64,000 bases of DNA from contig NZ_JANJOU010000008.1 of assembly GCF_024594815.1 (NCBI RefSeq), forward strand, positions 124,001 through 188,000, in the 5' to 3' direction. Each line of letters begins with the position of its first letter. Position 1 is the first letter of the stretch. The position numbers and the translations under genes are program-made. Positions 8,385 to 59,588 of this stretch are shown one piece after another. The DNA is from Roseomonas populi. Its GTDB lineage: Bacteria; Pseudomonadota; Alphaproteobacteria; Acetobacterales; Acetobacteraceae. The notes below the pieces were generated by a model, which ran no database searches, was not told the DNA's origin, and worked only from the letters and a program-made list of their open reading frames with translations.

Positions 8385-9350
8385 ATGATCTCCCGGCGCA
8401 CTCTCCTTGCCGCATCCATGATTCCGACCAGCGGAGCCACCCTGGCCGGCGCTCGCTTCTCCAGCCCACCGGACCTTCGCCTCTTCGTTCCCGCCGCCCC
8501 CGGTGGCGGCTGGGACGGCACGGCGCGGGCCGCTGAGAAGGTTCTGCGCGAAACGCGGGCCGCCTCCTCCCTCCAGTTCGAGAATGTTCCCGGCGCGGGC
8601 GGCACGGTCGGCCTGCCACGCTTTGTTGGCATGCGCGGGCGCCGCAACCTGCTGATGGTCAGCGGCCTCACCATGATCAGTTCGGCCATCACCAACAAAA
8701 GTCCGATCGCCGTCTCGCAGCTCACGCCGGTTGCGCGGCTGATCGGCGAGGTGCACGTCCTCGTCGTGCCGGCGGAAAGTCCCATCCGCACCTTGTCCGA
8801 TTTCGTCGCGGCCTTCCGGGCGGACCCGAAAGGCATGTCGGTGGCCGGCGGCTCCGCCGGGGGAACGGACCACATGCTGCTCGGGATCATGGGCAGCGCC
8901 CTCGGGATCCCCGCAACCCAGCTCTCCTACGTCGCCTTCTCCGGCGGGGGTCCGGCGGTCACTGCCATCATCGGCGGGCAGGTCAAGGCCGGTATCAGCA
9001 ACTGGAGCGAGTTCGAGCCGCACGTCGCGAGCGGCCGAATGCGCGCCATCGCCCTCTCCGGCACGGAGCGCCTGCCGGATGTGGATGTGCCGACCATGCG
9101 CGAGGGCGGGCTGGATGCCGTGCTCTACAATTGGCGCGGCGTCTGGGCTCCGCCGGGCATTCCGGAGGAGCATCGGGAGCAGCTCGCCTCCCTCATGGAG
9201 GACTTGGTGCGCTCCGAGGAATGGAAGCGCGAGTGCAAGAACCGCGGCTGGCAGGAGCTCTACATGCCGCCGGCAGAGTTCGCAGCGTTCCTGAAGGCCG
9301 AGACAGGCTCTATCGAGGGAGTCCTCAGGCAGCTCGGCCTGGCGGGGTAA
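8385..9350 (+). CDS. TctC-like tricarboxylate receptor
   Basis: 321 aa with AGGAAG upstream. The signal starts MISRRTLLAAS. The motif LRLFVPAAPGGGWDGTARA is the form seen in genuine TctC (tricarboxylate) receptors rather than the usual Bug VPFAPGG. Further matches are VPGAGGTVGLPRFV and FSGGGPAVTAIIGGQVKAG. It probably binds citrate-like tri- or dicarboxylates in the periplasm; no TctA/TctB partner is nearby. Its last 26 bp overlap the convergent GntR gene. The association with an aconitase homologue a few genes away supports a tricarboxylate ligand, which remains inference. Confidence 0.9.
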   Translation: MISRRTLLAASMIPTSGATLAGARFSSPPDLRLFVPAAPGGGWDGTARAAEKVLRETRAASSLQFENVPGAGGTVGLPRFVGMRGRRNLLMVSGLTMISSAITNKSPIAVSQLTPVARLIGEVHVLVVPAESPIRTLSDFVAAFRADPKGMSVAGGSAGGTDHMLLGIMGSALGIPATQLSYVAFSGGGPAVTAIIGGQVKAGISNWSEFEPHVASGRMRAIALSGTERLPDVDVPTMREGGLDAVLYNWRGVWAPPGIPEEHREQLASLMEDLVRSEEWKRECKNRGWQELYMPPAEFAAFLKAETGSIEGVLRQLGLAG

Positions 9351-40415: not shown

Positions 40416-41252
40416 TCAGGCCTGGCGCGGGCGGGGATCGGCAGATCGGGAGCCGAGGGCGGCAGAGATGCGGGCGGCAGTGCCCACCACCTCCCGCATC
40501 AGGGGGCCACGCAGCTCCTCCTCCGAGGTGAGAAGGGCGACGGTGGAGATGTTGATGGCCGCGACTGTCGCGCCGGTCACGTCGCGCACAGGAGCGGCGA
40601 CACTGGCGACACCGGCCTCGTAACCCGCGACATGGGCGGCAAAGCCGGCGCTGCGATCGGCTTCCGCCTGGGCCAGCAGCGCTGGCAAGGTAGTGGGCGT
40701 CCGTGCCCCGTGCTGTTCCAGAGCCACACCGGCGTAGAGGTCCCGCAACTCCGCGGTGGAATGAGCGGCCAGCAGCACGCGCCCCATGCTGGTGGCGTGC
40801 GCCGGCAGGCGCGTGCCCACCTGCACCACGCTGGACAGTGACCGGCGCGTAGGGAGCCGCGCCAGATAGACCACCTCTCGCCCTTCCAGCACGCCAAGGT
40901 GGGCGGACCAGCCAGTTCGGTCGCGCAGCGCTTCGAGCTGCGGCCGTGCCACTTCCAGCAGGTCGCGCGAGGCGAGATAGCCGTAGCCCAGCCGGAGCAC
41001 CTGAGGCCCCAGCGCATAGGTGCGCGTGCCCGGATCGTAGGTGAGGAAGCCGAGCTGATCGAGCGTGTAGGCGATGCGGAACACGGCTGAGCGGGTGACG
41101 CCCACGACCTGCCCCATTTCCGTCAGCGTCATGCGTCGCCGCTCCGGCGTAAAGGCCAGCATCACCTCCAGCCCGCGCTGAAGCCCAGGAACGATGTAGC
41201 GGTCGTCCACCGGGCCGCCACTCTCGCCGACTGCGCTACTCTGTTTGTCCAT
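40416..41252 (-). CDS. IclR-family transcriptional regulator
   Basis: 278 aa from the ATG at 41252. N-terminal winged helix (VPGLQRGLEVMLAF, MTLTEMGQVVGVTRSAVFRIAYTLDQLGFL), then the GAF-like effector domain (VYLARLPTRRSLSSVVQVGTRLPAHATSMGRVLLA, ASVAAPVRDVTGATVAAINIS). IclR proteins bind small aromatics or organic acids. It is divergent from the bicupin gene (81-bp spacer) and precedes a Bug receptor, so both are likely targets. Confidence 0.9.
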   Translation of the reverse strand: MDKQSSAVGESGGPVDDRYIVPGLQRGLEVMLAFTPERRRMTLTEMGQVVGVTRSAVFRIAYTLDQLGFLTYDPGTRTYALGPQVLRLGYGYLASRDLLEVARPQLEALRDRTGWSAHLGVLEGREVVYLARLPTRRSLSSVVQVGTRLPAHATSMGRVLLAAHSTAELRDLYAGVALEQHGARTPTTLPALLAQAEADRSAGFAAHVAGYEAGVASVAAPVRDVTGATVAAINISTVALLTSEEELRGPLMREVVGTAARISAALGSRSADPRPRQA

Positions 41253-41333: not shown

Positions 41334-42284
41334 ATGAACGTCCTTGCCCCCGTTCCCTCTACCCTCGAGGCCGAGCTCCGCGCCCATGTGGGCCGCCACG
41401 TCGCCAAGACGTTCGATTGGGACGCCTTCCCCAGCAATCGTGGCTTCCCGGACCTGGAGCGCGCCCAGATGCGCTATATCGGCGCCGGCGGGTCGCCGAA
41501 GGTGGGCGACAACTCCACCTTGAAGCCGGAGCACTTCACGGTCAGCCTTATCTACAAGCACGTCGGTAAGTACGCGGCCTGCCACGCGCACGAGATCGAG
41601 GAGAGCTTCCTGATCATCGACGGCGTGCTGACGGTGGGATGGGAGAAGGACGGCGAGGTGGTCGAGGTGAAGCTCGGCCCGAAGGACATGATCCTGAACG
41701 CCCGCGACATCGGCCACGGCTTCCGCAACGACGGGATCGAGCCCGTGCTGATGTCCATCAGCGTCGATGTCGGCAAGCCGCTGCCGCCGCGCTACCTCTA
41801 CCACCCGAAGAACACCGCGCCGGAGCTGGCGCGCAGCTTCGGTGCGGAGCCGGGCCACACCATCCCCTTCAGCCCCACCGGCGAGCACCCGCTGAACCAG
41901 CACATGGCGCGCTACGTGATCCGCCACAGCGAGCAGCCGACCCTCTGGGATCCGGCGGGCTTTACCCGGAAGGTCTATGTCGGCCCTGGCGGCATCGAGA
42001 GCGACACCTGCCGCAAGGAGATGCTGGGCATCCCGGTGGGCGCCGGCGTGAAGCCCTATTCCCGCGATGTGGAGGACGCCTTCCTGGTGCTGGAGGGCAG
42101 CCTGACTGTGGGCTGGGAGGATGAGGCCGGAAACAGCGTAGAGGTTGAGCTGGGCCCGCGCGACCTGGTGATGAACCCGGCCGGGCGCCGCCACTGGTTC
42201 CGCAACAACAGCGCGGGACCGGTGACCGTGTGGCAGGTGATCGGCACCGCCGAGCCGGAGACGGTGCGCTTCGAGGCGGCGTAA
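41334..42284 (+). CDS. Bicupin protein with one degenerate metal site
   Basis: 316 aa from the ATG at 41334. Two cupin domains (residues ~60-155 and ~215-310) share the lines SL(I/T)VGWE-x-(K/E)LGP(K/R)D(M/L)(I/V)-(L/M)N. The N-terminal cupin has a metal set in AACHAHEIEESF and, in motif 2, GHGFRND. In the C-terminal cupin the first motif is VKPYSRDVEDAF, lacking the H-x-H pair, so it probably cannot bind metal. No signal peptide. May be a dioxygenase or isomerase of aromatic or sugar acids; gentisate-dioxygenase-like enzymes have the same bicupin plan, but I see no decisive similarity. Divergent IclR regulator. Confidence 0.8.
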   Translation: MNVLAPVPSTLEAELRAHVGRHVAKTFDWDAFPSNRGFPDLERAQMRYIGAGGSPKVGDNSTLKPEHFTVSLIYKHVGKYAACHAHEIEESFLIIDGVLTVGWEKDGEVVEVKLGPKDMILNARDIGHGFRNDGIEPVLMSISVDVGKPLPPRYLYHPKNTAPELARSFGAEPGHTIPFSPTGEHPLNQHMARYVIRHSEQPTLWDPAGFTRKVYVGPGGIESDTCRKEMLGIPVGAGVKPYSRDVEDAFLVLEGSLTVGWEDEAGNSVEVELGPRDLVMNPAGRRHWFRNNSAGPVTVWQVIGTAEPETVRFEAA

Positions 42285-47891: not shown

Positions 47892-48269
47892 TCATCCCGG
47901 CTGGGAGACAGATCCGTCCGGCCGGTATGACATTGCGTACTGGAAGTAGTCTGCCTGCCCGCCACCGTAGATCGTGACAGAGGCACCCCCACCAGCACGG
48001 CCAGTGAAGCGTTCACCCGAGGCGTGATCGAAACCTTCGAAATCGAGATCACCCGTGGCCTGCAGATCCACAGGACCGGCGCCATCCAGGACGAAGCTGT
48101 CGGGTCCGGGACGCACCACCTGACCTGAGGCGACGTCGCGGAAGCCGTCCGGGAGAGGCTCGATGACAAAGCTCTCGCCAGTGCCGAGCGCGTGGACCAG
48201 GACGGGACAGCGGCCTGCGCGACTGCGATGCGCCACGACCGCCACAATGCGCCTTGTGTCTGGGTCCAT
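47892..48269 (-). CDS. Small beta-rich protein of unknown function
   Basis: 125 aa from the ATG at 48269, preceded by AGGGGAAGG. No signal peptide or TM segment. Rich in Gly, Asp and beta-prone stretches (RCPVLVHALGTGESFVIEPLPDGFRDVASGQVV, DLDFEGFDHASGERFTG, ASVTIYGGGQADYFQYAMSY). I recognise no family. It lies alone between the molybdenum hydroxylase operon and the Rieske gene in the same orientation, with 222 bp upstream and 268 bp downstream. Whether it belongs to either pathway is unknown. Confidence 0.55.
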   Translation of the reverse strand: MDPDTRRIVAVVAHRSRAGRCPVLVHALGTGESFVIEPLPDGFRDVASGQVVRPGPDSFVLDGAGPVDLQATGDLDFEGFDHASGERFTGRAGGGASVTIYGGGQADYFQYAMSYRPDGSVSQPG

Positions 48270-48491
48270 CTCGGCCTTCCCCTCAGTTCCTGGCCAGGTC
48301 ATGCCGTCCATCCAGCAATCATCTCCCTTCTCGGTGCCTGCCCGGCTGCGGCGGCAGTGAGGGCCTGGGACTCTTCGGCCAGGATCGCGGGGCGAGCCGC
48401 GCGATCCCGTGTTGGGCAATGGCAGGCGGGGGACATAGCGTACTTCCCACCGCCAAGCGCTCTGCCTCAAGCGGAGCGGCGGGTCTGCGGA

Positions 48492-49592
48492 TCAAGCCTT
48501 GCCGGCTGCCCGGAGCTCCGTGAGTTGCTTGCGCGTGACCTGAGCAAGGTAGCGCCGCAGGCGGATCAGTCCGGCGTCATGCTGATAGAGCATTTCGTGC
48601 TTCTCAAGCCCCGGCTTACAGCCGGCCAGCATCTCGCGATCCTGCTCGAGCACCGCCCAGTGCCGAGGCTCCATGCGGGTCTTGTACAGAAAGCGCCAGA
48701 CGTCACGCTGCCAGCCCTGCACCTTCCGGCAGCGCCAGAAGAAGCTTGCGGTGTTGTTCTCATCGATCGGAGTGGCAAAGCCAATGATGGCGAAGTTGCC
48801 GCCCGGACCTCCGGAAGGGGGATAGGGGATCTCCAGCCGGACATAGATCGCGCCATCATCGACGAGCTCGGACCAGTCGAAGTTCACGTCCCGCTGGCCC
48901 TCCTTCTCGAAGAAGAATCCTGTGGGCGTGTCGCGGGTAACGAAGTGGGCCTGGGTGTCTCCCTGGTACATGGTGTGCGAATTGGCGTGCAGGAAGGTCC
49001 CGTGCATCGGGTCCATCGCGTTGTCCAGAGAATAGCGCCAGTACATCTCCCAGTCGGCGTAGCAGACGAACCTTTCCCAATCGGGGGCGGCGAGCTGTGG
49101 CGGCGGGATGAACTCGGGTGCTTCCTCGTGCAAGGCGTCGCCGAACCAGACGAAGACGGCACCCGCAACTTCCACTGCAGGGTAGGTCTTCACGGCCCTT
49201 TTGCCCTCGAGCGGGCAACCCGGCTGGCCGGGTACCGAGAGCACCGTGCCATCCGGCCCCACTTCCACCCCATGGTAGTTGCAGCGAAGCCGGTCGCCCT
49301 CGTTCTGTCCGCGGGAGAGCGGGACGGCGCGGTGCGGGCAGCGGTCCACCTGCACGTGAACGGCGCCCGCCGCGTCGCGCCACAGCACGATGGGCTCACC
49401 GAGCCGCGTCAGCCCTACGGGCTTCTCGCCCGGCTTTACAAAGCGGGAGGGCAGGACAGGCCACCAGCGGTTACGGACGCCAAGCTTCAAGGCCTCCCGG
49501 ATCTCTGCATCCGTGACCGGGCCATTGTTGGTCGGTGCTGGCGCGCGTGCGGCCGTGCGGGCGGCGGAAGGGGAGATGGTGGTAGCGCTCAT
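48492..49592 (-). CDS. Rieske non-heme iron oxygenase, alpha subunit
   Basis: 366 aa. The Rieske cluster ligands are Cys85, His87, Cys104 and His107 (RCPHR and RCNYHG). The mononuclear iron site is in DNAMDPMHGTFLHANS, with His197 and His202 the likely ligands. Single-component alpha subunits of ~350 aa with a VanB-type reductase nearby are typical of aromatic O-demethylases and monooxygenases such as VanA and of phthalate-type ring dioxygenases. The reductase is encoded 390 bp upstream in the same operon. No small beta subunit is present. Substrate unknown; 4 bp after the 76-aa gene. Confidence 0.92.
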   Translation of the reverse strand: MSATTISPSAARTAARAPAPTNNGPVTDAEIREALKLGVRNRWWPVLPSRFVKPGEKPVGLTRLGEPIVLWRDAAGAVHVQVDRCPHRAVPLSRGQNEGDRLRCNYHGVEVGPDGTVLSVPGQPGCPLEGKRAVKTYPAVEVAGAVFVWFGDALHEEAPEFIPPPQLAAPDWERFVCYADWEMYWRYSLDNAMDPMHGTFLHANSHTMYQGDTQAHFVTRDTPTGFFFEKEGQRDVNFDWSELVDDGAIYVRLEIPYPPSGGPGGNFAIIGFATPIDENNTASFFWRCRKVQGWQRDVWRFLYKTRMEPRHWAVLEQDREMLAGCKPGLEKHEMLYQHDAGLIRLRRYLAQVTRKQLTELRAAGKA

Positions 49593-49596
49593 CGGC

Positions 49597-49827
49597 TTAG
49601 GCTCCCAGTTCCTGCATCGTGGCCTGGAAGTTTTCGGCAGTCCACTGTCCCCCGGACTTCGGGCGGATGCGGGAGCGGTTCAGGGCCGCCACCAGGTCGT
49701 CCAACTCCCAGTTGCCCTTCGCGAATGCGGCCTCGATCGCATCTGCTAGGCTGCCCTCCCATTCGGTCGGCAGGCGGCTGATGGATTGCCGCTCCTCAAG
49801 ATGAGGGAAGCGATAGGTGTCGTTCAC
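49597..49827 (-). CDS. 76-aa recombinase-like helix-turn-helix protein
   Basis: GTG start with AGGAGAAGG ahead. The sequence has SLADAIEAAFAKGNWELDDLVAALNRSRIRPKSGGQWTAENFQATMQ. The stretch LVAALNRSRIRPKSGGQWTA resembles the small HTH-like domain at the C-terminal side of serine recombinases (A-L-N-x-x-G-I-x-T-x-x-G-x-x-W-t). There is no catalytic domain, so it is not a recombinase. It is encoded 4 bp before the Rieske alpha gene, suggesting a conserved accessory or regulatory role for the oxygenase. The function is unknown. Confidence 0.75.
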   Translation of the reverse strand: MNDTYRFPHLEERQSISRLPTEWEGSLADAIEAAFAKGNWELDDLVAALNRSRIRPKSGGQWTAENFQATMQELGA

Positions 49828-49982
49828 GATGCCTTCTCCTCTCGCCTAGATCGCTGTCCGCCCGGCCGCTCTGCACGGGCAGGGACGGCATGACGGGTCG
49901 AATGCCGTCCGGCCGGGGCGATACCCCGGGGTGAGCCGCGTCGCGCCAACGCACAACCGGGACCGCACGTTGATCGACGGAC

Positions 49983-50963
49983 TCACAGGTCGAGCACCAG
50001 CCGCGACGACTTGGCGCGCGACACGCAGGTCATCATTGTCGTGTTCGCTGCCCGCTCGGACGCGGAGAGGATGCTGTCCCGATGATCCACCTCCCCTTCC
50101 AGCACCGGCACCTCGCATGTTCCGCAGACTCCCTGCTCGCAGGAGCAGGGTACGGAAAGGCCGGCGTCGTTCAGGACCTGGAGCACGGTGCGGTCTTCCG
50201 GGACGGTGAGCGTGATGCCGGCTTGGGCGCACTCCACCTCAAACGTGTCGGAGACCTCGCCTTCCGGCCGGGCACGGGCCGTGAACCACTCGAAGCGGAC
50301 GCTGCCTTCGGGCCAGTGGGATGTGGCCTCTTCCACGGCCAGCATCAGCCGCTCGGGGCCGCAGCAGTAGAGAAGCGTGTCGGAGGGGGCGTCGCGCAGG
50401 CGCTCGGCAACGTCCAGGCGCGTCCCTTCCTCGCTGGCATGAACGGAAACCTCGCCACCCAGGGCGCGAGCTTCGCGGATGAAAGGGGCGTCGGCGCTGC
50501 GGGGTGCGCAGAGGAGCAGGGTCCAGCGCGCACCGGCCTGGGTGGCGGCCCGCATCATGGGCAGCAGCGGGGTGATGCCGATGCCGCCGGCGACGAAGAG
50601 GTAGTTCGCCGCCGCGTCGAAGGCGAAGTTGTTGCGCGGCAGGCCCAGGGTGACGACCACACCAGGGCGCAGCTCTCCGCGATGCACGAAGCGGGAGGCG
50701 CGGCCGCCTTTCACGTCGCGAACGGCGATGCGGTAGGTGGTCCGGTCGGCCGGATCGCCGCACAGGGAGTACTGACGGACCGAGCCGTCCGGCAGGTGCA
50801 GGTCCACATGCGAGCCGGGCTCGAACGGCGGCAACCCGCTTCCGTCCTCCGCCTCGAAGTCGAGGGCGAGGATGCCGGGCGCCACATAGGTCATGCGGCG
50901 CAGCAGGGCGGGGAAGGTCTGGGCAGCGGCGGCGCCCGCCATGGGGCTGCTGATGGCGTTCAT
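49983..50963 (-). CDS. PDR/VanB-family ferredoxin reductase
   Basis: 326 aa from the ATG at 50963 (ATGA overlap with the aldehyde dehydrogenase). Flavin domain with RQYSLCGDP, NAD-binding domain with VAGGIGITPLLPM and YCCGPERLM. The C-terminal plant-type [2Fe-2S] ferredoxin domain has Cys275, Cys280, Cys283 and Cys313 (C-x4-C-x2-C-x29-C). Transfers electrons from NAD(P)H to the Rieske oxygenase encoded downstream. A 155-bp gap (49828-49982) separates it from the 76-aa gene. Confidence 0.93.
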   Translation of the reverse strand: MNAISSPMAGAAAAQTFPALLRRMTYVAPGILALDFEAEDGSGLPPFEPGSHVDLHLPDGSVRQYSLCGDPADRTTYRIAVRDVKGGRASRFVHRGELRPGVVVTLGLPRNNFAFDAAANYLFVAGGIGITPLLPMMRAATQAGARWTLLLCAPRSADAPFIREARALGGEVSVHASEEGTRLDVAERLRDAPSDTLLYCCGPERLMLAVEEATSHWPEGSVRFEWFTARARPEGEVSDTFEVECAQAGITLTVPEDRTVLQVLNDAGLSVPCSCEQGVCGTCEVPVLEGEVDHRDSILSASERAANTTMMTCVSRAKSSRLVLDL

Positions 50964-52459
50964 GCGGCGATCCCGGCCCAGGGATGGGGCTGACCGGAGG
51001 TGTCGAGGTAGAAGGACTTCTGCCGCTGCCAGGCGCGCAGGCCCTGCCGCCCCTTCTCCCGCCCCAGCCCGCTGTCCTTGATGCCGCCGAAGGGGGTGGA
51101 AATGGAGAACTGCTTGTAGGTGTTCACCCAGACCGTGCCCGTGCCAACGCCGCGGCCGATGCGCCAAGCGCGGTTGAAGTCTCGCGTCCAGATGCCGCAT
51201 GCCAGGCCGTAGCTGCTCTCGTTGGAGAGGGCGATCGCCTCCGCCTCGTCCTCGAAGGGCTGGACGTGGAGGACGGGGCCGAAGATCTCCTCCTGGCAGG
51301 TCCGCGCGGCGCTGGGCAGGCCGGCGATGATGGTGGGCAGGTAGTAGATGCCGGCGTCGTATTCCGCGCCCTCCGGCCGGCGACCGCCGCAGAGGATCGT
51401 GCCGCCTTCGCCAACCGCCTGAGCCACAGCGCGCTCAACGCTGTCGCGGTGCGGATCGCGGATCATGGGGGCGACCTGGGTGGCGGGATCGGCGGGGTGG
51501 CCGACACGGAGTGCCTTCGTGGCGGAGACCAGGCGCTCCACGAAGCTCTCGTAGATAGTGCGCTGGACCAGCAAGCGGGAGCCGGCGATGCAGGACTGGC
51601 CGGTCGAGGAGAAGATGCCGAAGAGGATGCCCGCGATCGTCAGGTCCAGGTCGGCATCGGCGAAGACGATCGTGGGGGACTTGCCGCCGAGTTCCAGCGA
51701 GACGGGCATCAGCTTCTCGGCGGCCTTGCGGGCGATGCCGCGGCCGACTTCCGTGCCGCCGGTGAAGCTGACCTTGCCGATGGCGGGGTGGGTGACGAGG
51801 GTGTCACCCACCTCCTCGCCGCGCCCGGGCAGGACGGAGAGGAGGCCGGGGGGGAGCCCCGCTTCCTCGCAGATGCGGGCCATCACCAGGGAGACGAGCG
51901 GGCTCCAGGAGGCCGGCTTCATCAGCACGGCATTTCCCGCGGCCAGGGCGGGGGCGAGCTTCTGCGCGTCCGATGCGATGGGGGAGTTCCAGGGCGTGAT
52001 GCCCGCCACCACGCCGATGGGCTCGTGCACGGACATGGTGATGTAGTTGCCGCGGGAGGGGGTGAGGGCCTCCTCCTCCGTTTCCAGCACGGCGGCGAAG
52101 TAGCGGAAGGTGCCGGCGGCGCTGGCGGCGAGCGCACGGGTTTCGGCGAGGGTCTTTCCGGTGTCGCGGCTCTGCACCTGGGCGATGCGCTCGCCGTGCC
52201 TGGTCAGGCCGTCCGCGATGCGGTGAAGGTAGGTGGCGCGCTGGTGCGGCAGGAGGTTGCGCCAGGACGGGTCCTCGGCGGCCTTCTGCGCGCCGGCGAT
52301 GGCCTCCTCCACGTCGTCGCGGGAGGCGCCGCGCAGGGTGAGATTCACGCTGCGGTCGGCGGGGTAGATCGAGGTGATCTCCGCCCCGCGCCCCTCGCGC
52401 CACTCGCCGGCCACGTAGATGCGGCCGTCGGGCAGTCCGATCTCTTGCATCTCTGCCAT
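50960..52459 (-). CDS. Aldehyde dehydrogenase
   Basis: 499 aa; ATG at 52459 shares one base with the ThDP enzyme stop (TGATG). Catalytic Cys290 (STGQSCIAG) and general base Glu256 (SLELGGKSP); ITPWNSPI and SFTGGTEVGRGI are the NAD-binding landmarks. Likely oxidises the aldehyde made by the ThDP-dependent enzyme or by ring-cleavage fragments to the acid. Betaine/hydroxymuconic-semialdehyde-type enzymes have the same length. Substrate unknown. Confidence 0.92.
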   Translation of the reverse strand: MAEMQEIGLPDGRIYVAGEWREGRGAEITSIYPADRSVNLTLRGASRDDVEEAIAGAQKAAEDPSWRNLLPHQRATYLHRIADGLTRHGERIAQVQSRDTGKTLAETRALAASAAGTFRYFAAVLETEEEALTPSRGNYITMSVHEPIGVVAGITPWNSPIASDAQKLAPALAAGNAVLMKPASWSPLVSLVMARICEEAGLPPGLLSVLPGRGEEVGDTLVTHPAIGKVSFTGGTEVGRGIARKAAEKLMPVSLELGGKSPTIVFADADLDLTIAGILFGIFSSTGQSCIAGSRLLVQRTIYESFVERLVSATKALRVGHPADPATQVAPMIRDPHRDSVERAVAQAVGEGGTILCGGRRPEGAEYDAGIYYLPTIIAGLPSAARTCQEEIFGPVLHVQPFEDEAEAIALSNESSYGLACGIWTRDFNRAWRIGRGVGTGTVWVNTYKQFSISTPFGGIKDSGLGREKGRQGLRAWQRQKSFYLDTSGQPHPWAGIAA

Positions 52460-54144
52460 CACTTCACGCTCCCGGCGGCACCGGCGGGCGGGCCGGCGAA
52501 GCTCTCGGCGAAGGGGCCGATGGAGGTCATGTCCACCTCCAGCACGCAGGGGCCGTCCTTCGCCAGGGCGCGGTCCAGCGCGGCCTCGAAGCGATCGATC
52601 TCCAGAACCTTCTCGTGCGGCAGGCGGATGGATTGGCAGAGCAGGCCGAAATCCGGGGTCAGCAGGTCCGCGTAGTGGCGACGGCCGCCATACTGCGCGT
52701 CCTGGATGTTGCGGATCACGCCGTAGCCGCCGTCGTTCATCAGGATGAAAACGACGTTGGCGCCCATATCGGCCGCCGTCGCCAGTTCCCCGATCATCAG
52801 CATGGCGCCGCCATCGCCCACCAGGGCGACGGTCTTCGCCTCGGACGCCATGGAGGCCCCGATGGCCATGGCGATGCCCTGGCCGATGCCGCCGCCCAGC
52901 GCGTGCACGCCCAGATGCGGCGCGGCGAGGTGGACGTAGCGGTTGCCGAAGGTGGAATTGGAAAGGGTGACGTCCCGCACGAAGGGGTGGCGCCCGGCGG
53001 GCACGCGGGCCAGCAGTGCGTCCGCCACCACCTGGTAGGGGCCGAGGGCGGAGCGAAGCGCGCCTTCGGACTGGGCGCGGGCGATGGCGACGTCATGCAG
53101 GAAGGTGGCGTCGGTGGCCAGTGTCTCCGGCAGGCGGGCGAGCAGGCCCTCCAGCACCAGCCGGGCGTCGCCGGCGATGAACATGTCCACGGGGTAGTTG
53201 CGCCCGGCCTGGGAGGGCTCGGCATCCACCTGCACCAGGGGGCGGGGCAGGGGCATGGCGTTGTTGCGCGTCTCGTTCCCGCGGAGGCGGGAGCCGAGGA
53301 CGATCATCAGGTCGGAGCGGTCGTAGAGCGCCTGGGCGGCGGGCGTCATGTTGAAGGCGCCCAGCGACCGGGGGTGGTCCTCCGGCACGGTGGCGCGGCC
53401 CTGGGTGCTGGTGACGGCGGCCAAGCCGCGGTTCACCAGGGCCGTGGCGGCCTCCGACGCTCCGCGGGCGCCGCCGCCGAGCCAGAGCATGGGGCGCTCC
53501 GCGCGCAGGATCATTTCCGCCAGGGCGTCGAGCTGCGCGGGGTCGGGCTGCTGGGGCGCGATGTGCAGGCTGGCCGGCAGGGCGCGGCCCGGCACCTTCA
53601 CGCGCTGCACGTCCACGGGGAACTCGATCGTCACGGGGCCGGTCGGGGCGGTGAGCGCGGCACGGGCGGCGGCTAGCAGCGTGTCCACGGCGTTCGCCGG
53701 CTCCCAAACGCGGAAATAGGCCTTGCTGATGGCCTTCAGCATGTCCGGCTGGCGCGGCACGTCGTGGATAGCGGCGCGGTCGCGGTCCATGAAGGCGCGG
53801 TCGATGGTGGTGGTGATGTGCAGCACGGGGGTGCCGGCCGTCAGCGCCTCTACCTGGCTGCCCGCCGTGTTGCCAGCGCCCGTGCCGGTGGAGGTGATGA
53901 CCACGCCGAGCCCACGAGAGACGCGCGCATGGGCATCGGCCATGTTCATGGCCCCCGCCTCACCGCGCGCGGGGACGAAGCGGATGCGGCCCTGGCGCGC
54001 GATGGCGTCAAGGATCGGCATGTTGTGGATGGAGATGACGCCGAAGGCGTGGGTGACGCCGATATCGGCGAGCGCCTTTGCGACGAGGTCGCCCACCGAC
54101 TCCTCGGTGGTCATCCGCGCGGCGGCGAGGGGGGAGTGGTCCAT
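52459..54144 (-). CDS. Thiamine-diphosphate-dependent enzyme (acetolactate synthase/decarboxylase-like)
   Basis: 561 aa. PYR domain with the cofactor-activating Glu62 in VPARGEAGAMNMADAHAR. A central domain follows. The PP domain has the Mg/ThDP motif VGDGGAMLMIGELATA...ILMNDGGYG (GDG-x-ND rather than GDG-x-NN). Related to benzoylformate decarboxylase, benzaldehyde lyase and acetolactate synthase-like proteins. In this operon a 2-oxo-acid decarboxylase or C-C lyase yielding an aldehyde for the neighbouring dehydrogenase is the best reading. 12 bp from the upstream SDR gene. Confidence 0.9.
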   Translation of the reverse strand: MDHSPLAAARMTTEESVGDLVAKALADIGVTHAFGVISIHNMPILDAIARQGRIRFVPARGEAGAMNMADAHARVSRGLGVVITSTGTGAGNTAGSQVEALTAGTPVLHITTTIDRAFMDRDRAAIHDVPRQPDMLKAISKAYFRVWEPANAVDTLLAAARAALTAPTGPVTIEFPVDVQRVKVPGRALPASLHIAPQQPDPAQLDALAEMILRAERPMLWLGGGARGASEAATALVNRGLAAVTSTQGRATVPEDHPRSLGAFNMTPAAQALYDRSDLMIVLGSRLRGNETRNNAMPLPRPLVQVDAEPSQAGRNYPVDMFIAGDARLVLEGLLARLPETLATDATFLHDVAIARAQSEGALRSALGPYQVVADALLARVPAGRHPFVRDVTLSNSTFGNRYVHLAAPHLGVHALGGGIGQGIAMAIGASMASEAKTVALVGDGGAMLMIGELATAADMGANVVFILMNDGGYGVIRNIQDAQYGGRRHYADLLTPDFGLLCQSIRLPHEKVLEIDRFEAALDRALAKDGPCVLEVDMTSIGPFAESFAGPPAGAAGSVK

Positions 54145-54156
54145 GGATCGCTCTCG

Positions 54157-54936
54157 TCAGATGTGCCGCGAGACGCCGCCGGAGACTTCCAGGCTGGCGC
54201 CGGTGACGTAGCTCGCCGCTGGCGAGCCGAGGAAGAGAATGGCGCGCGCCGGCTCCTCCGGCCGGCCGAGACGGGCCAGCGGGATGCCCTTCTTGGCGGC
54301 CAGGGCGCCGAACCAGGCCTCGCGCGTCTGGGAGCGGTCCTCCCGTGCCTCGTAGCGGCGCTGCCACTGGCCGGAGTCCACCAGGCCCAGCAGGATGGAG
54401 TTCACGCGGATCTTCGGCGCGAATTCCGTGGCCAGGGACTTCAGCAGGCTCTGCACGCCGGCGCGGGCAGCTGACGTGCAGACCATGTGGGCTTCGGGCT
54501 GCAACGCGAGGAGGGAGTTCACCCCGACGATGGCCGGGGCCTCTGCCTTCTCCAGCATCGGGCGGAAGGCGTGCAGGGTGTGGATCTGGGAGAAGAACTT
54601 CAGCTCCAGCTCCTCCCGCCACGCCGCCTCGGTGGTGTCGGTGAAGGTGGAGACGCGGCCCTGGCCGGCATTGTTCACCAGCAGGTCCAGCGCGCCGCCG
54701 CCCCATTCGGCAACGGCGGCGGCGAAGGACTGCACCTGGTCGCGCTTCAGCACGTCGCACTGCACCGCCAGCACGTCGCCGCCCAGCTCGGCGCGCGCGG
54801 CCTCCAGCCGGCCGGTGTCGCGGCCGCAGATGGCGACGCGCGCGCCCTCCTCCAGCAGAAGCCGCGCGGTGGCGAGGCCGATGCCGGAGGTGCCGCCGGT
54901 GACGACGGCAACGCGGTTGGAGTAGCCGAGATCCAT
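54157..54936 (-). CDS. SDR-family oxidoreductase
   Basis: 259 aa from the ATG at 54936, 4 bp after the VOC stop. Cofactor motif VTGGTSGIGLATARLL, NNAGQG, Ser in VGVNSLLALQPEA. The canonical Y-x3-K is replaced: the corresponding segment reads HMVCTSAARAGVQSLLKSLA, without the Tyr. This is unusual and may mean altered chemistry or a non-catalytic SDR. C-terminal YVTGASLEVSGGVSRHI. It may act on a dihydrodiol or hydroxy intermediate of the pathway. Confidence 0.85.
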   Translation of the reverse strand: MDLGYSNRVAVVTGGTSGIGLATARLLLEEGARVAICGRDTGRLEAARAELGGDVLAVQCDVLKRDQVQSFAAAVAEWGGGALDLLVNNAGQGRVSTFTDTTEAAWREELELKFFSQIHTLHAFRPMLEKAEAPAIVGVNSLLALQPEAHMVCTSAARAGVQSLLKSLATEFAPKIRVNSILLGLVDSGQWQRRYEAREDRSQTREAWFGALAAKKGIPLARLGRPEEPARAILFLGSPAASYVTGASLEVSGGVSRHI

Positions 54937-54940
54937 GGGT

Positions 54941-55870
54941 TCAGCCCGCCGTCTGCCAGCCGGCATCGGGGCGGCCGGCCATGACGGTGCGCATGGCCGG
55001 CGTGGGCGGGCCGGCGGTCATCCAGGTGTCCATCTTCTCCGGCACGTCGCGCGGCCAGACTTCCGGCTGGTGCGTGGCCTCCTCCACCTTGTGCACCTCG
55101 GAGGTGAACTCGATGACGAAGCCAGAGGGAGAGACGAAATAGGCGAAGGGATTGTTGCCCGGGCCATGGCGGCCGGGGCCCCAGGCCGGGGACTGGCCGG
55201 CCACGCGCATGCGCCCGATCCCCCGCATGAAGCTGTCGATCGAGGGCATCTCGAAGGCAACGTGGTTCACGGAGGAGTACTGGGCGCGATTAAGCGCGAT
55301 GGAGTGGTGGTCGCTGAAATCCGCATCCGTCGCGGCGCGCAGGAAGACCATCATGTCCGCGGAATAGTCGGTGATGCGGAAGCCCAGGTGCTCCTGATAC
55401 CAGCCGCTCAGCGCCTCCATGCCCGGCGTGTTCAGCACGACGTGGGAGACCTTGCGCGGCATGGCACGGCTGTCATCCGTGTCCTCGTGCCGCGCCACGT
55501 CGGCAGAGAAGCGCAGGCGGCGGCCCTCCGGGTCCAGCGCGGTGAAGCCGTAGCCACCGCCCGGGGTGGAAAGCTCGGCGGGGGCGCCGCTGACCGCGAT
55601 GCCCTCGGCCACCAGCCCGGCGTGCAGGGCGTCCACGCGGGCGCGGCTGTTCATGCCGAAGTGGATGTACTCGATGCCGAAGGTGCTGTCCTCGCGCAGG
55701 GCGTAGATCCAGTGCTCGGCGCCGGTGCCGCGGAAATAGACCGTGCCGTCATTACCCTGGGCCACCGTGCGCAGGCCCCAGCTCTTCTCGTAGAAGTCGC
55801 GGGTCGCGGTCACGCCGGGGGCGCGCATGGCGATGCCGCGCATGAAATCGACCGTCGCCTTCTCGCTCAT
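54941..55870 (-). CDS. Extradiol-type ring-cleavage dioxygenase (VOC superfamily)
   Basis: 309 aa with two glyoxalase-like modules, the plan of catechol 2,3- or 2,3-dihydroxybiphenyl 1,2-dioxygenase. The Fe(II) triad is present in the C-terminal module: His143 (KVSHVVLNTPG), His203 (SSVNHVAFEMPS) and Glu254 (SGFVIEFTSEV). The N-terminal module lacks it, as expected. It would open a catechol ring next to the hydroxyls, giving a product for the alpha/beta hydrolase in the same operon. Overlaps the IclR gene (ATGA). Confidence 0.88.
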   Translation of the reverse strand: MSEKATVDFMRGIAMRAPGVTATRDFYEKSWGLRTVAQGNDGTVYFRGTGAEHWIYALREDSTFGIEYIHFGMNSRARVDALHAGLVAEGIAVSGAPAELSTPGGGYGFTALDPEGRRLRFSADVARHEDTDDSRAMPRKVSHVVLNTPGMEALSGWYQEHLGFRITDYSADMMVFLRAATDADFSDHHSIALNRAQYSSVNHVAFEMPSIDSFMRGIGRMRVAGQSPAWGPGRHGPGNNPFAYFVSPSGFVIEFTSEVHKVEEATHQPEVWPRDVPEKMDTWMTAGPPTPAMRTVMAGRPDAGWQTAG

Positions 55871-56697
55871 ACCACCACCTTCAGTTTTGTCGGATTGGGG
55901 GAAGCTGCCGGCCCGGCCCAGCCAAGGCGGCGGGAGATCTCCTCCGCCGTCTCGCGCACGAGGGTGCCGATGCGCTCGCGCCGCGCCGGGCCTTCGAAGG
56001 CCGCGGTGTTGCCGCTGACGTTCAGCGCGGCGATGGGAGTGCCGGAGGAATCAAAAATGGCTGCGGCCACAGAACTGATGCCGGCCTCGAAGAAGCCGTC
56101 GCTCCAGGCCAGGCCTTCCTCTCGGTCCTCGTCCAGTCTGGCACGAAGCTGCTCCATCGTGACGGGTGTCTGGGCCGTGCTGGCGGACAAGGCCGCGTGG
56201 CCAAAGATCTCCTGGACCCGCGCGGGGGGCAGGTAGGCCAGGATGATGCGGCCCATATTCGCGGCGTGCGCGGGAAGGCGGCTGCCGATACGGATGTTGC
56301 TGACGTAGCGCCCGTTCTCCGGCGTGCGGCGGACGACGTAGACGATCTCGGTTCCGTCCATCACGCCAAGATGGGCGGAGAGCTCCACCTCATCGGCCAG
56401 GCGGCCGATGGCGGGGGCGGCGGTCTGCACCAGATCCTGGGAGAAGAAGGCCTGCGCCGCGACGCCGATGAGACCGAGGCCGATGCGCCAACCGCCATTG
56501 GGGGCGGGCTCGATGAAGCGCTCGGCTTCCAGCGTCGTCAGCAGGCGGAGCAGGGTGGTGCGGTTTATGCCAAGGGCGCGGGCGGTTGCGGCCATGTTGG
56601 TGACGCGGTCGCCCTCAGCGATGTGGCGTAGCAACCGCGCCGCGCGCTGCACGGGCGGGGAAAGATAGGCCGAGTCTTCGGAATCGGTATCAGGCAA
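55867..56697 (-). CDS. IclR-family regulator of the aromatic operon
   Basis: 276 aa, TTG start, overlapping the upstream hydrolase by 8 bp. Winged helix: QRAARLLRHIAEGDRVTNMAATARALGINRTTLLRLLTTLEAERFI. Effector domain: VYVVRRTPENGRYVSNIRIGSRLPAHAANMGRIILA and SSVAAAIFDSSGTPIAALNVSG. Being inside the operon it probably regulates its own expression. The paired three-half-site sequences at 58310-58332 and 58472-58494 are the obvious candidate binding sites. Confidence 0.88.
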   Translation of the reverse strand: MPDTDSEDSAYLSPPVQRAARLLRHIAEGDRVTNMAATARALGINRTTLLRLLTTLEAERFIEPAPNGGWRIGLGLIGVAAQAFFSQDLVQTAAPAIGRLADEVELSAHLGVMDGTEIVYVVRRTPENGRYVSNIRIGSRLPAHAANMGRIILAYLPPARVQEIFGHAALSASTAQTPVTMEQLRARLDEDREEGLAWSDGFFEAGISSVAAAIFDSSGTPIAALNVSGNTAAFEGPARRERIGTLVRETAEEISRRLGWAGPAASPNPTKLKVVV

Positions 56698-57496
56698 GGA
56701 TCGTCTCCCCGAGCAGGGCGGCGACCTCGGCCGGGAACTCCTGCGGCAAGGCGTGGCCTGCTGCGGGATACTCGGCCAGGCGGATGGGGTTCGGCAGGGC
56801 AGCGTGGAGGCGGCGGGCGTTGTCGGGCGGGGTCACGACATCCTCCAGCCCCGTGGCAACCAGGACGGGCATGGGCAGGCGCGCGGCATCGGCCAGCAGG
56901 TCGCCGGCGCCGAGGGCATGGACGGCCTGGGCGTAGCCGGCAGGGTCCACTGCGGCCATGGCGCGGCGGACTCCGTCCAGCACCTTCGGGCGGTTCGCCG
57001 CGTCGTGGACCAAGCGCGCGGCGCGGCGGGCGGCGAAGTCCTGCGGCCCGAGGGCGTTCAGGTCGTCGATCCGCGCCTGCACGCCGGGCGGCAGCGGGCC
57101 GGCGGTGACGCCGTAGCCGAGGGCGGGCGACATCAGCGCCAGGCGCTCCACCCGGGCGGGGTTGCGGGCCGCGAAGCGCGCGGAGAAGAGGCAGCCGAGG
57201 GAGTGGCCGGCGAGAGTGATGCGGCCCAATCCCAACGCGTCCAGCAGGCGCTCCAGCACGACGGCATAGTCGTCCGGCGTGGGAGTCCGAGGCACGACGG
57301 GAGCGGAGTTGGCGTAGCCCGGCGCGTTCCAGGCCCAGAGGGCGCGGTCCTGCGGTAGGGCGTTCATGAGCGGGAGCCAGCTCTCCGCGTTGCTACCGAT
57401 GCCGTGCAGCAGGATCAACGGCAGGGCCGGGTCCGGGCCGGGGCGATGCAGCAGGGAAAGACCGGCCGCTTCGGTCCGGGTGATCTCGGCGCTCAT
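56690..57496 (-). CDS. Alpha/beta hydrolase (meta-cleavage-product hydrolase-like)
   Basis: 268 aa from the ATG at 57496 (ATGA with the SDR). Oxyanion segment LILLHGIGSNAESW, nucleophile elbow GHSLG, acid near VATGLEDVVTPPDN and His in PAAGHALPQEFP. Size and motifs match C-C hydrolases of the BphD/MhpC kind and simple esterases. With an extradiol dioxygenase in the operon, cleavage of a ring-fission product is likely. Clearly paralogous to the protein at 60725-61603. Confidence 0.88.
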   Translation of the reverse strand: MSAEITRTEAAGLSLLHRPGPDPALPLILLHGIGSNAESWLPLMNALPQDRALWAWNAPGYANSAPVVPRTPTPDDYAVVLERLLDALGLGRITLAGHSLGCLFSARFAARNPARVERLALMSPALGYGVTAGPLPPGVQARIDDLNALGPQDFAARRAARLVHDAANRPKVLDGVRRAMAAVDPAGYAQAVHALGAGDLLADAARLPMPVLVATGLEDVVTPPDNARRLHAALPNPIRLAEYPAAGHALPQEFPAEVAALLGETILA

Positions 57497-58239
57497 GTGA
57501 AGACAAAGCCCGCATCGACAGGCAGCACCTGGCCGGTGAGGGCAAGGGCGCCGGGGGTGAGAAGGAACGTCACCGTGTCCGTGATGTCCTCCGGCATCTG
57601 CGGGCCGGGAACGGCGCGGCCGGTCTCGTAGAGGCGGTGGCGCTCCGCGGGCACGTACTCCGTCGCCTCGTTGCGCATGATCCCCGGCGCGATGCACGTG
57701 ATGCCGATGCCGCGCGGGCCCAGTTCCCGCGCCAGTGATCGCGTCATGGAGATCACGGCGCCTTTGCTGGCCGTGTAGGCGAGCAGCCGCGGCGCACCCC
57801 AGAGGGCGGTGTCGGACGCGACGTTAACGATACGCCCCGCCCCCATCAGTGGCACCATCGCGCGCGTGACCAGCCAGGTGCCGCGCACATTCACGCGCAT
57901 CACCCGGTCCCAGGTATCGATTTCAATGGCGTCGAATTCGGGGCCGCCAATGCCCGTGGCGATGGCGGCGTTGTTGACCAGCCCATCGACCCGTCCCTCA
58001 TGCGCGGCGACATCCGCGGCAAAGGCAACGATGCTTTCGGGATCCGCAAGGTCCAGCGGCACGGCACGGGTCACATGGCCGGCCGCCGCGAGCTGGGCGG
58101 CCGTCTCCGACAGCTGGTCCACAAGGATGTCGGCCAGGATCAGCCGGGCCCCGGCGGAGGCGCAAGCCAGGGCGATGGCGCGCCCCACTCCCCGCGCCGC
58201 GCCCGTGACGACCACGGTGCGGCCGGCGAGCGTCCGCAT
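57493..58239 (-). CDS. SDR-family oxidoreductase, first gene of the aromatic operon
   Basis: 248 aa from the ATG at 58239; GTG codons at 58251 and 58266 are alternatives and no start has a clear SD. Motifs: VVTGAARGVGRAIALACASAGA, NNAAIA, Ser in IVNVASDTALWG, Y-x3-K in AYTASKGAVISM, C-terminal ALTGQVLPVDAG. Asp in LILADILVD favours NAD. May dehydrogenate a cis-dihydrodiol or a hydroxylated side chain. A half-site operator cluster lies 71 bp upstream. Confidence 0.88.
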   Translation of the reverse strand: MRTLAGRTVVVTGAARGVGRAIALACASAGARLILADILVDQLSETAAQLAAAGHVTRAVPLDLADPESIVAFAADVAAHEGRVDGLVNNAAIATGIGGPEFDAIEIDTWDRVMRVNVRGTWLVTRAMVPLMGAGRIVNVASDTALWGAPRLLAYTASKGAVISMTRSLARELGPRGIGITCIAPGIMRNEATEYVPAERHRLYETGRAVPGPQMPEDITDTVTFLLTPGALALTGQVLPVDAGFVFT

Positions 58240-58309
58240 TGCGTCGCTCACCGGGCCCGTTCCCACCGGGAGCTCAGGCTGCTGTGCCCGGCCGTCCTGT
58301 CGGCAGGCC

Positions 58310-58332
58310 GTTCATATAAGAACGTAGTGTTC
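58310..58332 (-). promoter_or_regulatory. Operator A: GTTC-N6-GAAC-N5-GTTC
   Basis: Three four-base half-sites at 58310-58313, 58320-58323 and 58329-58332 with spacers ATATAA and GTAGT. Lies 71 bp upstream of the SDR start of the leftward operon and overlaps a TTATAT that could be its -10 region. It matches operator B, read on the opposite strand, at 19 of 23 positions. The three-half-site layout (palindrome plus a further repeat) recalls binding sites described for IclR proteins of aromatic pathways such as PcaU. Confidence 0.65.
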
Positions 58333-58471
58333 ATGGATGCAGCATGGCGGCGGCACCCCAGGTTGTCAAAGGCAATCTTCCCGTCGGAGAGTTGCGACAT
58401 GCCGCTACTCGGGAGCGTGAAGATTACGGCTTGACCTCCCAGCCGATCTTCTCGCACGCTGGCTTAAATCC

Positions 58472-58494
58472 GAACACAACGTTCAAATAAGAAC
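58472..58494 (+). promoter_or_regulatory. Operator B: GAAC-N5-GTTC-N6-GAAC (inverse of A)
   Basis: Half-sites at 58472-58475, 58481-58484 and 58491-58494 with spacers ACAAC and AAATAA. It is the reverse-complement arrangement of operator A and faces the rightward Bug gene (start 58632). Each divergent unit thus has its own copy in its own orientation, 139 bp apart between inner edges. The rest of 58240-58631 shows no gene. Confidence 0.65.
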
Positions 58495-58631
58495 TATTCT
58501 GCGCCGTCTCCCGGATCGTTGCACGACGTGGATGCCTGCCGCCGCTCACGGCGCGGAAGGCAGTCCCGCGGCGGGCGACGATGTCACCAAACACGCTCGA
58601 ACCTCTTGTCCGCCATATCGGAAGGCTGTTC

Positions 58632-59588
58632 ATGAAGACCCTCGGACGACGCGCTCTCACGCTCGGCTTCGCCGCCCTATCCGCCCCCGCCGTCGCGCAA
58701 CCCGCGCGGCCGATCACCCTCGTCGTTGCCTATCCACCGGGCGGCGACACGGATGCACTGGCGCGCCTTTTTGCGGACCGCCTCGCGCCTCGCCTTGGCC
58801 GGCAGGTCATCGTGGAGAACCGATCCGGAGCCAGCGGTGTTGTCGGCACCCAGTACGTCGCCCGCGTGCCGCCGGACGGGTCGATCCTTCTTTTCGCTCC
58901 CTCGACATTCCCGCTCGCGCCGCTCGTTCTGAAGCAGGGAGTCACCTACAATCCCGTCAGTGACTTCACGCCCGTCCACATGATCGCGACCAACCCGATG
59001 GTCCTGGTGGCCAGCCGGCAGAGCGGCATCCGTTCCCTGGCGGACGTTGTTTCTCAGGCGCGAGCCGGGCATCTGGTCGGCTACGGCTCACCCGGTTCCG
59101 GGTCGCCCATGCACATCTTCGCCGAGATGTTCAATCACCTCGCGAAGTTGCAGCTCGCTGAGATCTCCTACCGAGGTGTCGCCCCGGTGGTGAACGACCT
59201 GCTCTCCAATTCCATCGGGATCGGGTTGGTCACCATCGGCGCCGTGTATGATCACTTCAAGGCGGGAACGCTCGTCCCGGTCGCAGTCTCGGAAGGCGCA
59301 CGCAGTCCGGTTCTTCCCGAGGTCCCGACCTACAAGGAGTCTGGATACGACCTGGACGTGACGACATGGTGGGGATTGTTCGGTCCGCGCGGGCTGCCGA
59401 CCTCCATGGTGGAAACGTTGAACTCTCACATGAACGACGTGCTAGCGCTCCCCGACGTGCAGGAGCGGCTGGCAGCGTTCGGCGGCGTACCGGCAGGCGG
59501 GCCGCCGTCACGCCTGGCAGACGTCAATCGAACCGATTTCGAGCGCTTCGCCCGCGTGGTGCGGGACTTGAATATTCGAGTGGAGTAG
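58632..59588 (+). CDS. Bug-family solute receptor, divergent from the aromatic operon
   Basis: 318 aa from the ATG at 58632 with GGAAGG upstream. Signal peptide MKTLGRRALTLGFAALSAPAVA. Hallmarks: RPITLVVAYPPGGDTDALARLF (Tyr-Pro variant), VENRSGASGVVGTQYVAR, VGYGSPGSGSPMHIFAE and ISYRGVAPVVNDLLSNSIG. The shared operator suggests it imports the aromatic or acid substrate of the leftward operon. A strong inverted repeat follows its stop. Confidence 0.92.
   Translation: MKTLGRRALTLGFAALSAPAVAQPARPITLVVAYPPGGDTDALARLFADRLAPRLGRQVIVENRSGASGVVGTQYVARVPPDGSILLFAPSTFPLAPLVLKQGVTYNPVSDFTPVHMIATNPMVLVASRQSGIRSLADVVSQARAGHLVGYGSPGSGSPMHIFAEMFNHLAKLQLAEISYRGVAPVVNDLLSNSIGIGLVTIGAVYDHFKAGTLVPVAVSEGARSPVLPEVPTYKESGYDLDVTTWWGLFGPRGLPTSMVETLNSHMNDVLALPDVQERLAAFGGVPAGGPPSRLADVNRTDFERFARVVRDLNIRVE

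Follow-up and report, generated by a model that had tools for sequence, protein, structure and literature searches.

Two opposed copies of a conserved three-half-site operator are predicted to place an aromatic catabolic operon and a Bug receptor gene of Roseomonas populi under one IclR-family regulator

The window analysed here, a stretch of 64,000 nucleotides of Roseomonas populi DNA, contains a divergent promoter region from which a catabolic operon is read leftward and a Bug receptor gene rightward (Table 1). The genes listed leftward are consistent with a ten-gene unit, and from their families we would guess at an aromatic pathway that comprises oxidation, a decarboxylation or lyase step, aldehyde oxidation and O-demethylation; solved-structure searches returned no close named enzyme for the operon's substrate. 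Inside the leftward unit the reductase and Rieske oxygenase genes are separated by a 390-base gap (49593-49982), which could contain a second promoter or a small gene. The receptor gene on the right encodes a protein of the TctC type, which we take to be COG3181, and its nearest solved structures by sequence are Bug27 and terephthalate-binding proteins. TctC-type receptors are also encoded in the IphR and TphR operons.

Table 1. Genes, operators and probable promoter elements of the divergent locus (window coordinates)
Feature	Position	Strand	Remarks
Unnamed protein	47892..48470	-	no Pfam match; last gene of the putative ten-gene unit; conserved in several relatives
Rieske oxygenase	48492..49592	-	with VanA_C domain
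Ferredoxin-type reductase	49983..51200	-	
Aldehyde dehydrogenase	50960..52462	-	
Thiamine pyrophosphate enzyme	52459..54144	-	PRK07064
SDR2, SDR oxidoreductase	54157..54966	-	
Extradiol-type dioxygenase	54941..55870	-	glyoxalase/VOC fold; Pfam, NCBIfam
R1, IclR-family regulator	55867..56697	-	proposed binder of A and B
Alpha/beta hydrolase	56690..57697	-	Pfam; true start uncertain, listed frame overlaps SDR1
SDR1, SDR oxidoreductase	57493..58266	-	Pfam; first gene of the leftward operon
Operator A	58310..58332	+	GTTCATATAAGAACGTAGTGTTC; GTTC-N6-GAAC-N5-GTTC; heads the leftward operon (starts with SDR1)
Weak -10, operon promoter	58341-58346		CATGCT; 17 bases on from the -35
Probable -35 box, operon promoter	58364..58369	-	TTGACA; TTGAC similarly distant in 27 of 31 sites
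Probable -35 box, Bug promoter	58431..58436	+	TTGACC
Weak -10, Bug promoter	58455-58460		CACGCT; spacer 18
Operator B	58472..58494	-	GTTCTTATTTGAACGTTGTGTTC; layout as A; heads the rightward Bug receptor gene
TctC/Bug solute receptor	58581..59588	+	unit under operator B; start codon uncertain

Operators A and B had been described in an earlier note as two copies of one three-half-site pattern, and both indeed fit GTTC-N6-GAAC-N5-GTTC exactly, are identical to each other at 19 of 23 positions and have the same polarity relative to their own units; in the reading direction of the leftward operon, operator A becomes GAAC-N5-GTTC-N6-GAAC. With up to two mismatches allowed the window holds seven matches against 2.46 expected from shuffles, a number reached by 1 of 100 shuffles. 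Apart from A and B none of the seven is exact, and two of the five inexact matches are A and B again, read with a shift on the opposite strand. Across the genome (5,866,663 bases, 96.88% complete) there are two exact matches, both of them here, and one match to the reversed-pattern control, while the chance of two random positions falling within 185 bases is ∼6e-5. A refined form with an A/T six-base spacer finds A and B alone at up to two mismatches (control: 0). As A and B are the only sites of the genome, even when the refined form is searched at two mismatches, the predicted regulon would here consist of one divergent promoter. The bare 12-base pattern was set aside as a genome-wide marker because it is too loose, being present in 126 of 299 genomes, and the A/T-spacer form is sharper (21 of 397); from the 126 genomes with any match we estimate a chance of ∼0.0025 for an exact site per 20 kb stretch. 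That so common a pattern should mark a chance or purely structural repeat without any regulator is nevertheless scarcely credible given the conservation, polarity and promoter phasing of the sites described below.

A scan of named genomes with R1 gave 13 loci, in ten of which R1 is 64-90% identical. Nine of these ten have an exact site and the tenth (L011) has a degenerate four-box version; L013, L014 and L015 (IclR at 29-35%) were considered as R1 loci, are without the site at one mismatch and were treated as encoding other regulators. Across 397 Acetobacteraceae genomes, 30 have an R1-like match at E 1e-50 or better. The earlier note had held that lack of half-site conservation in orthologous promoters would count against its reading; the exact site is found on the same contig in 21 of the 25 R1 orthologs of at least 54% identity. 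Among the remaining four, G194 has its site on another contig beside ABC genes (L080), the loci of G261 and G257 are cut by contig ends, and G152 (the genome of L011) has a degenerate site yet an R1 of 66% identity, which counts against R1 as the reader. None of five family genomes with an R1-like protein at 46-51% has an exact three-box site, though G196 has a site with one mismatch and G226 a two-box site; three 44% paralogs (L164-L166) have no site at one mismatch. The A/T-spacer form, found in 21 genomes out of 397 and, when reversed as a control, in none of them, is accompanied by an R1-like gene (E 1e-50) in 18 of the 21, and the strict form is missing from 12 of the 30 R1-like genomes (Fisher p 1.7e-20, kinship ignored).

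Nine bare-pattern matches were picked blind to genes, for an A/T-rich six-base core (4 to 6 of 6): three of them (L074, L075 and L076) head the operon and one (L080) its ABC genes, two are neighbours of other IclR genes, and no related gene was seen at the remaining three (in G072, where the bare pattern matches three times, the match beside R1 was covered). In G324 an unlinked A/T-spacer site (L192, 4849-4871) lies by an SDR gene 43% identical to SDR1; the polarity of this second site of G324 is opposite to its SDR gene, which counts against reading by R1, and SDR1 was not seen in the stretch of the G324 operon that was mapped. Beyond the family, all four loci from two Pseudolabrys and two Proteobacteria MAGs (L006-L009) have an exact site. 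R1-like proteins of 40-51% identity are encoded in seven plasmid records, six of which were covered (H4, of the same species as H3, was left out); exact sites are present in five of the six loci (Paracoccus sp. MA, Vibrio, Cupriavidus, Nitratireductor and Pseudosulfitobacter), and the Paracoccus pantotrophus plasmid has neither a catabolic operon nor an exact site within 9 kb of R1. The catabolic cluster on the Nitratireductor, Pseudosulfitobacter and Vibrio plasmids (L199, L200 and L194) has an extra 'aspartate dehydrogenase' gene between those of the thiamine enzyme and the aldehyde dehydrogenase.

Site geometry was tabulated for 31 sites from 26 loci, 30 of them exact and one (L010, 8415) with one mismatch. 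This table leaves out opposite-strand readings of the same site, a one-mismatch match at 10129 of L149, the sites of L077, L078, L079, L081 and L082 (where the R1 operon was not seen), the degenerate L011 site, the unlinked G324 site and the 46-51% loci L159-L163, and eight plasmid sites were counted apart. Two of the loci left out contain similar three- or four-box GTTC sites (L077, 9394-9426; L078, 9570-9602) beside IclR genes 31-33% identical to R2, a second IclR gene of the window introduced below, or to R1, and in L078 a Bug-like gene lies on the other side of the site. All 31 tabulated sites read GAAC-N5-GTTC-N6-GAAC in the direction of their own unit and each heads one unit, which bears out the earlier proposal that each operator faces a single transcription unit. 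The exact half-sites in the table are partly there by construction, as exact matches were searched and N6 was a search criterion in relatives; location, polarity, TTGAC phasing, spacer composition and co-occurrence with R1 are independent of that criterion. The six-base spacer is 96% A/T compared with 66% for the five-base spacer, where the former was not part of the first search criterion but loci taken from bare-pattern matches were chosen for it. The six bases preceding the site are likewise A/T-rich across the tabulated set.

The word TTGAC starts 34-43 bases upstream of the site in 27 of the 31 cases, compared with a mean of 0.5 and a maximum of 4 in 1000 shuffles, and the opposite-strand word GTCAA occurs in that span (-43 to -34) in none of the 31. 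Since the sites are related by descent we clustered them at 85% R1 identity, and TTGAC is present in 16 of the resulting 18 lineages; it is missing from the span at four sites, among them every one of the three from the G159/G236/G102 lineage. Six of the eight plasmid sites have TTGAC within a span of -47 to -34. Promoter spacers measure ∼17 bases and transcription starts ∼7 bases after the -10, so that at this distance from TTGAC the start site would be expected to lie under the operator, an arrangement indicative of repression. R1 could instead be an activator at A and B, as reported for PcaU and PobR, which are of the same broad family and have the same three-box layout. However, PcaU and PobR activate from upstream, and the sites studied here, which in 27 of 31 cases begin 34-43 bases downstream of the start of TTGAC, lie on the presumed start site and not upstream of the -35; activation is thus unlikely.

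A fourth box, which would turn the operator into two complete palindromes, is intact in L010 and L154 (palindromes 19 bases apart, centre to centre) and in L011. Over the 31 sites all four of its letters are present in 2 and three of four in 3, and its mean match of 1.42 of 4 is no higher than that at neighbouring offsets (1.68 at -11, 1.45 at -14), so that it finds no support as a feature of the whole set and a tetramer reading is only a possibility.

We next consider which regulator would read these sites. R1 passes the cut-offs for both domains of its family (HTH_IclR 37.4 bits, cut-off 22; IclR_C 131.8 bits, cut-off 24), and the earlier suggestion that it is the binder has held up in that R1 is the best candidate, although the window contains a rival that the note had missed: R2, an IclR gene at 40416-41252 (-), divergent from a cupin gene at 41334-42284 (+). 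In two relatives R1 is separate from most or all of the operon, standing apart from it in L149 and with the thiamine enzyme alone in L153, and in both an exact site lies just upstream of R1. All tabulated site-bearing R1 orthologs share the recognition helix I[NS]RTTL[LI]RLL, which occurs in none of the 22 other IclR proteins of this genome that align there (three more are unaligned over the helix and two have no row). Counting against R1 as the reader, the same motif is kept in four of the five 46-51% relatives without an exact site, and a paralog encoded in this genome, L071, resembles R1 in its helix (STLLRLL). Similar sites also adjoin other IclR genes in G052 and G195, from which it follows that R1 may not be the sole reader of the motif.

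Linkage alone cannot decide between R1 and R2, as R2 orthologs (54-90%) are present in all ten genomes of the first R1 set. Regulation of A and B by R2 would moreover suit L006-L009, where the operator is flanked by the operon and R2 and precedes the R2 start by ∼250 bases, and R2 is also nearby in L004, L005, L012 and L150. Several observations make it very unlikely, however. Many R2 starts bear, over or close to the start codon, a GTTT..AAAC palindrome of their own (exact N8 form in 9 of 25, N7 form by eye in others), and GTTC-N6-GAAC with at most one mismatch is found between -100 and +40 of none of the 25. R2 is missing at E 1e-60 from 12 of the 30 R1-like genomes, a threshold that a more diverged R2 could escape; among these 12 are seven with a close R1 (at least 62%), of which two are truncated at contig ends and the other five possess the site, in one case on another contig. 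Conversely G107, the sole genome with R2 but no R1, has no A/T-spacer site and one bare match, on a contig other than that of R2. Where both genes are present they are distant or on separate contigs in seven family genomes. R2 and the cupin gene are probably a separate regulon linked to the same cluster.

On the strength of these sequence comparisons we consider it likely that R1 binds both A and B and represses the operon and the Bug receptor gene together. R1 would bind the 14-base palindrome and the third half-site of each operator, as a dimer joined by a further subunit or a second dimer; a pair of dimers at a distance of 19 bases may occur, though with weak support. The transcription start of each unit, a short way downstream of the -35 box, would lie under its operator, such that bound R1 would block initiation of the catabolic operon at A and of the import receptor gene at B at the same time, until a substrate or intermediate of the pathway releases it. 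As R1 lies inside the operon headed by A, it would also control itself. Two opposed sites are 151-179 bases apart in four divergent loci and 192 in Nitratireductor, which suggests that R1 at A and B might be joined in one repression loop. This is improbable, because the spacings (162, 179, 161, 151 and 192) correspond to no fixed number of turns and do not agree with looping by fixed phasing, and because two sites occur in only 5 of the 26 tabulated loci, with one in the stretch covered for the rest.

The genes under the operator differ between loci. Sixteen of the 26 loci have a single operator, at the head of ABC transporter genes plus the operon (by Pfam for L004 and L007, otherwise by alignment or tblastn). 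The window, L003, L142 and L010 lack ABC genes in the head position; in these four a divergent Bug gene is preceded by an opposed operator of its own. L154 has its Bug gene and operon in one direction, each with an operator, and in L152 an MFS gene occupies the importer slot. On the plasmids, six of the eight sites neighbour a gene annotated in the expected direction. In Nitratireductor the operon and a FAD monooxygenase gene divergent from it are separated by a region with two opposed operators, and a further ABC unit is preceded by a third. In Vibrio one operator precedes the catabolic unit, and another lies upstream of TRAP genes at a distance of ∼1.2 kb, across a stretch that contains no annotated gene. 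The genes headed by the L194 site at 8716 and by the L197 site are unannotated; in L197 an open frame runs in the expected direction. These arrangements (one site, two opposed, two tandem, before R1 alone) suggest that the operator belongs to the head of the unit and to R1. On balance we lean towards the existence of an 'uptake slot', in which the regulator, the operator with its fixed polarity and much of the catabolic core would persist over a range that extends from Acetobacteraceae to Vibrio plasmids, with unrelated importers (ABC/NMT1, MFS, Bug and perhaps TRAP) replacing one another, those seen as separate units receiving a correctly oriented operator of their own and R2, with its different operator, often travelling along. 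Importer exchange under a constant operator suggests how catabolic operons recruit transport genes, and the analysis offers a specific and testable regulator-operator pair and regulon boundary for an aromatic pathway, to which it ties the Bug receptor.

Finally, for comparison we considered IclR systems already described. Literature searches of limited depth found no prior report of this regulon or aromatic pathway. Three-box and tandem IclR sites, as well as an association of COG3181 with aromatic regulons, are described in the portion of PMC8222616 available to us. According to the same portion, PcaU, PobR and HmgR, which act in aromatic catabolism, have three-box operators made up, like A and B, of a palindrome and an outer direct half-site, and the PcaU half-site is GTTC, as here, in a motif (GTTCGATWATCGMAC) whose 15-base palindrome has an N7 spacer where A and B have N6. 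The likeness to PcaU-type sites drawn in the earlier note therefore stands for the layout, a palindrome plus a third direct half-site, but extends neither to the spacer nor to family membership, as R1 scores 145.4 bits against the curated PcaR/PcaU/PobR model TIGR02431 (cut-off 284.75). A and B also differ from the PcaU, PobR and HmgR operators in being placed on the presumed start site. In the accessible part of their survey, Suvorova and Gelfand (2021) describe 32 IclR ortholog groups with three-box sites and 94 with tandem sites at a distance of 18-22 bases, the boxes alternating in direction as in A and B; the 19-base palindrome distance of L010 and L154, where the fourth box is present, falls within that tandem range, and the spacer of their group 1 consensus GKTYCRYW3-4RYGRAMC exceeds that of A and B by one or two bases.

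IphR and TphR of Comamonas (isophthalate and terephthalate) are, as far as the available sources go, IclR regulators of aromatic operons like R1, and IphR has an additional half-site as here, but with another half-site sequence and spacing (GTCT-N4-AGAC; PMC8222616, in part). PheR of Sphingobium SHPJ-2 is, in what is accessible of its description, an IclR repressor said to link aromatic uptake and catabolism, as proposed here for R1, but its operator is a GCAACG element and the uptake is of the TonB type, not Bug. The type of switch is thus a known one, and its apparent conservation while importers change to unrelated ones would be a new case.
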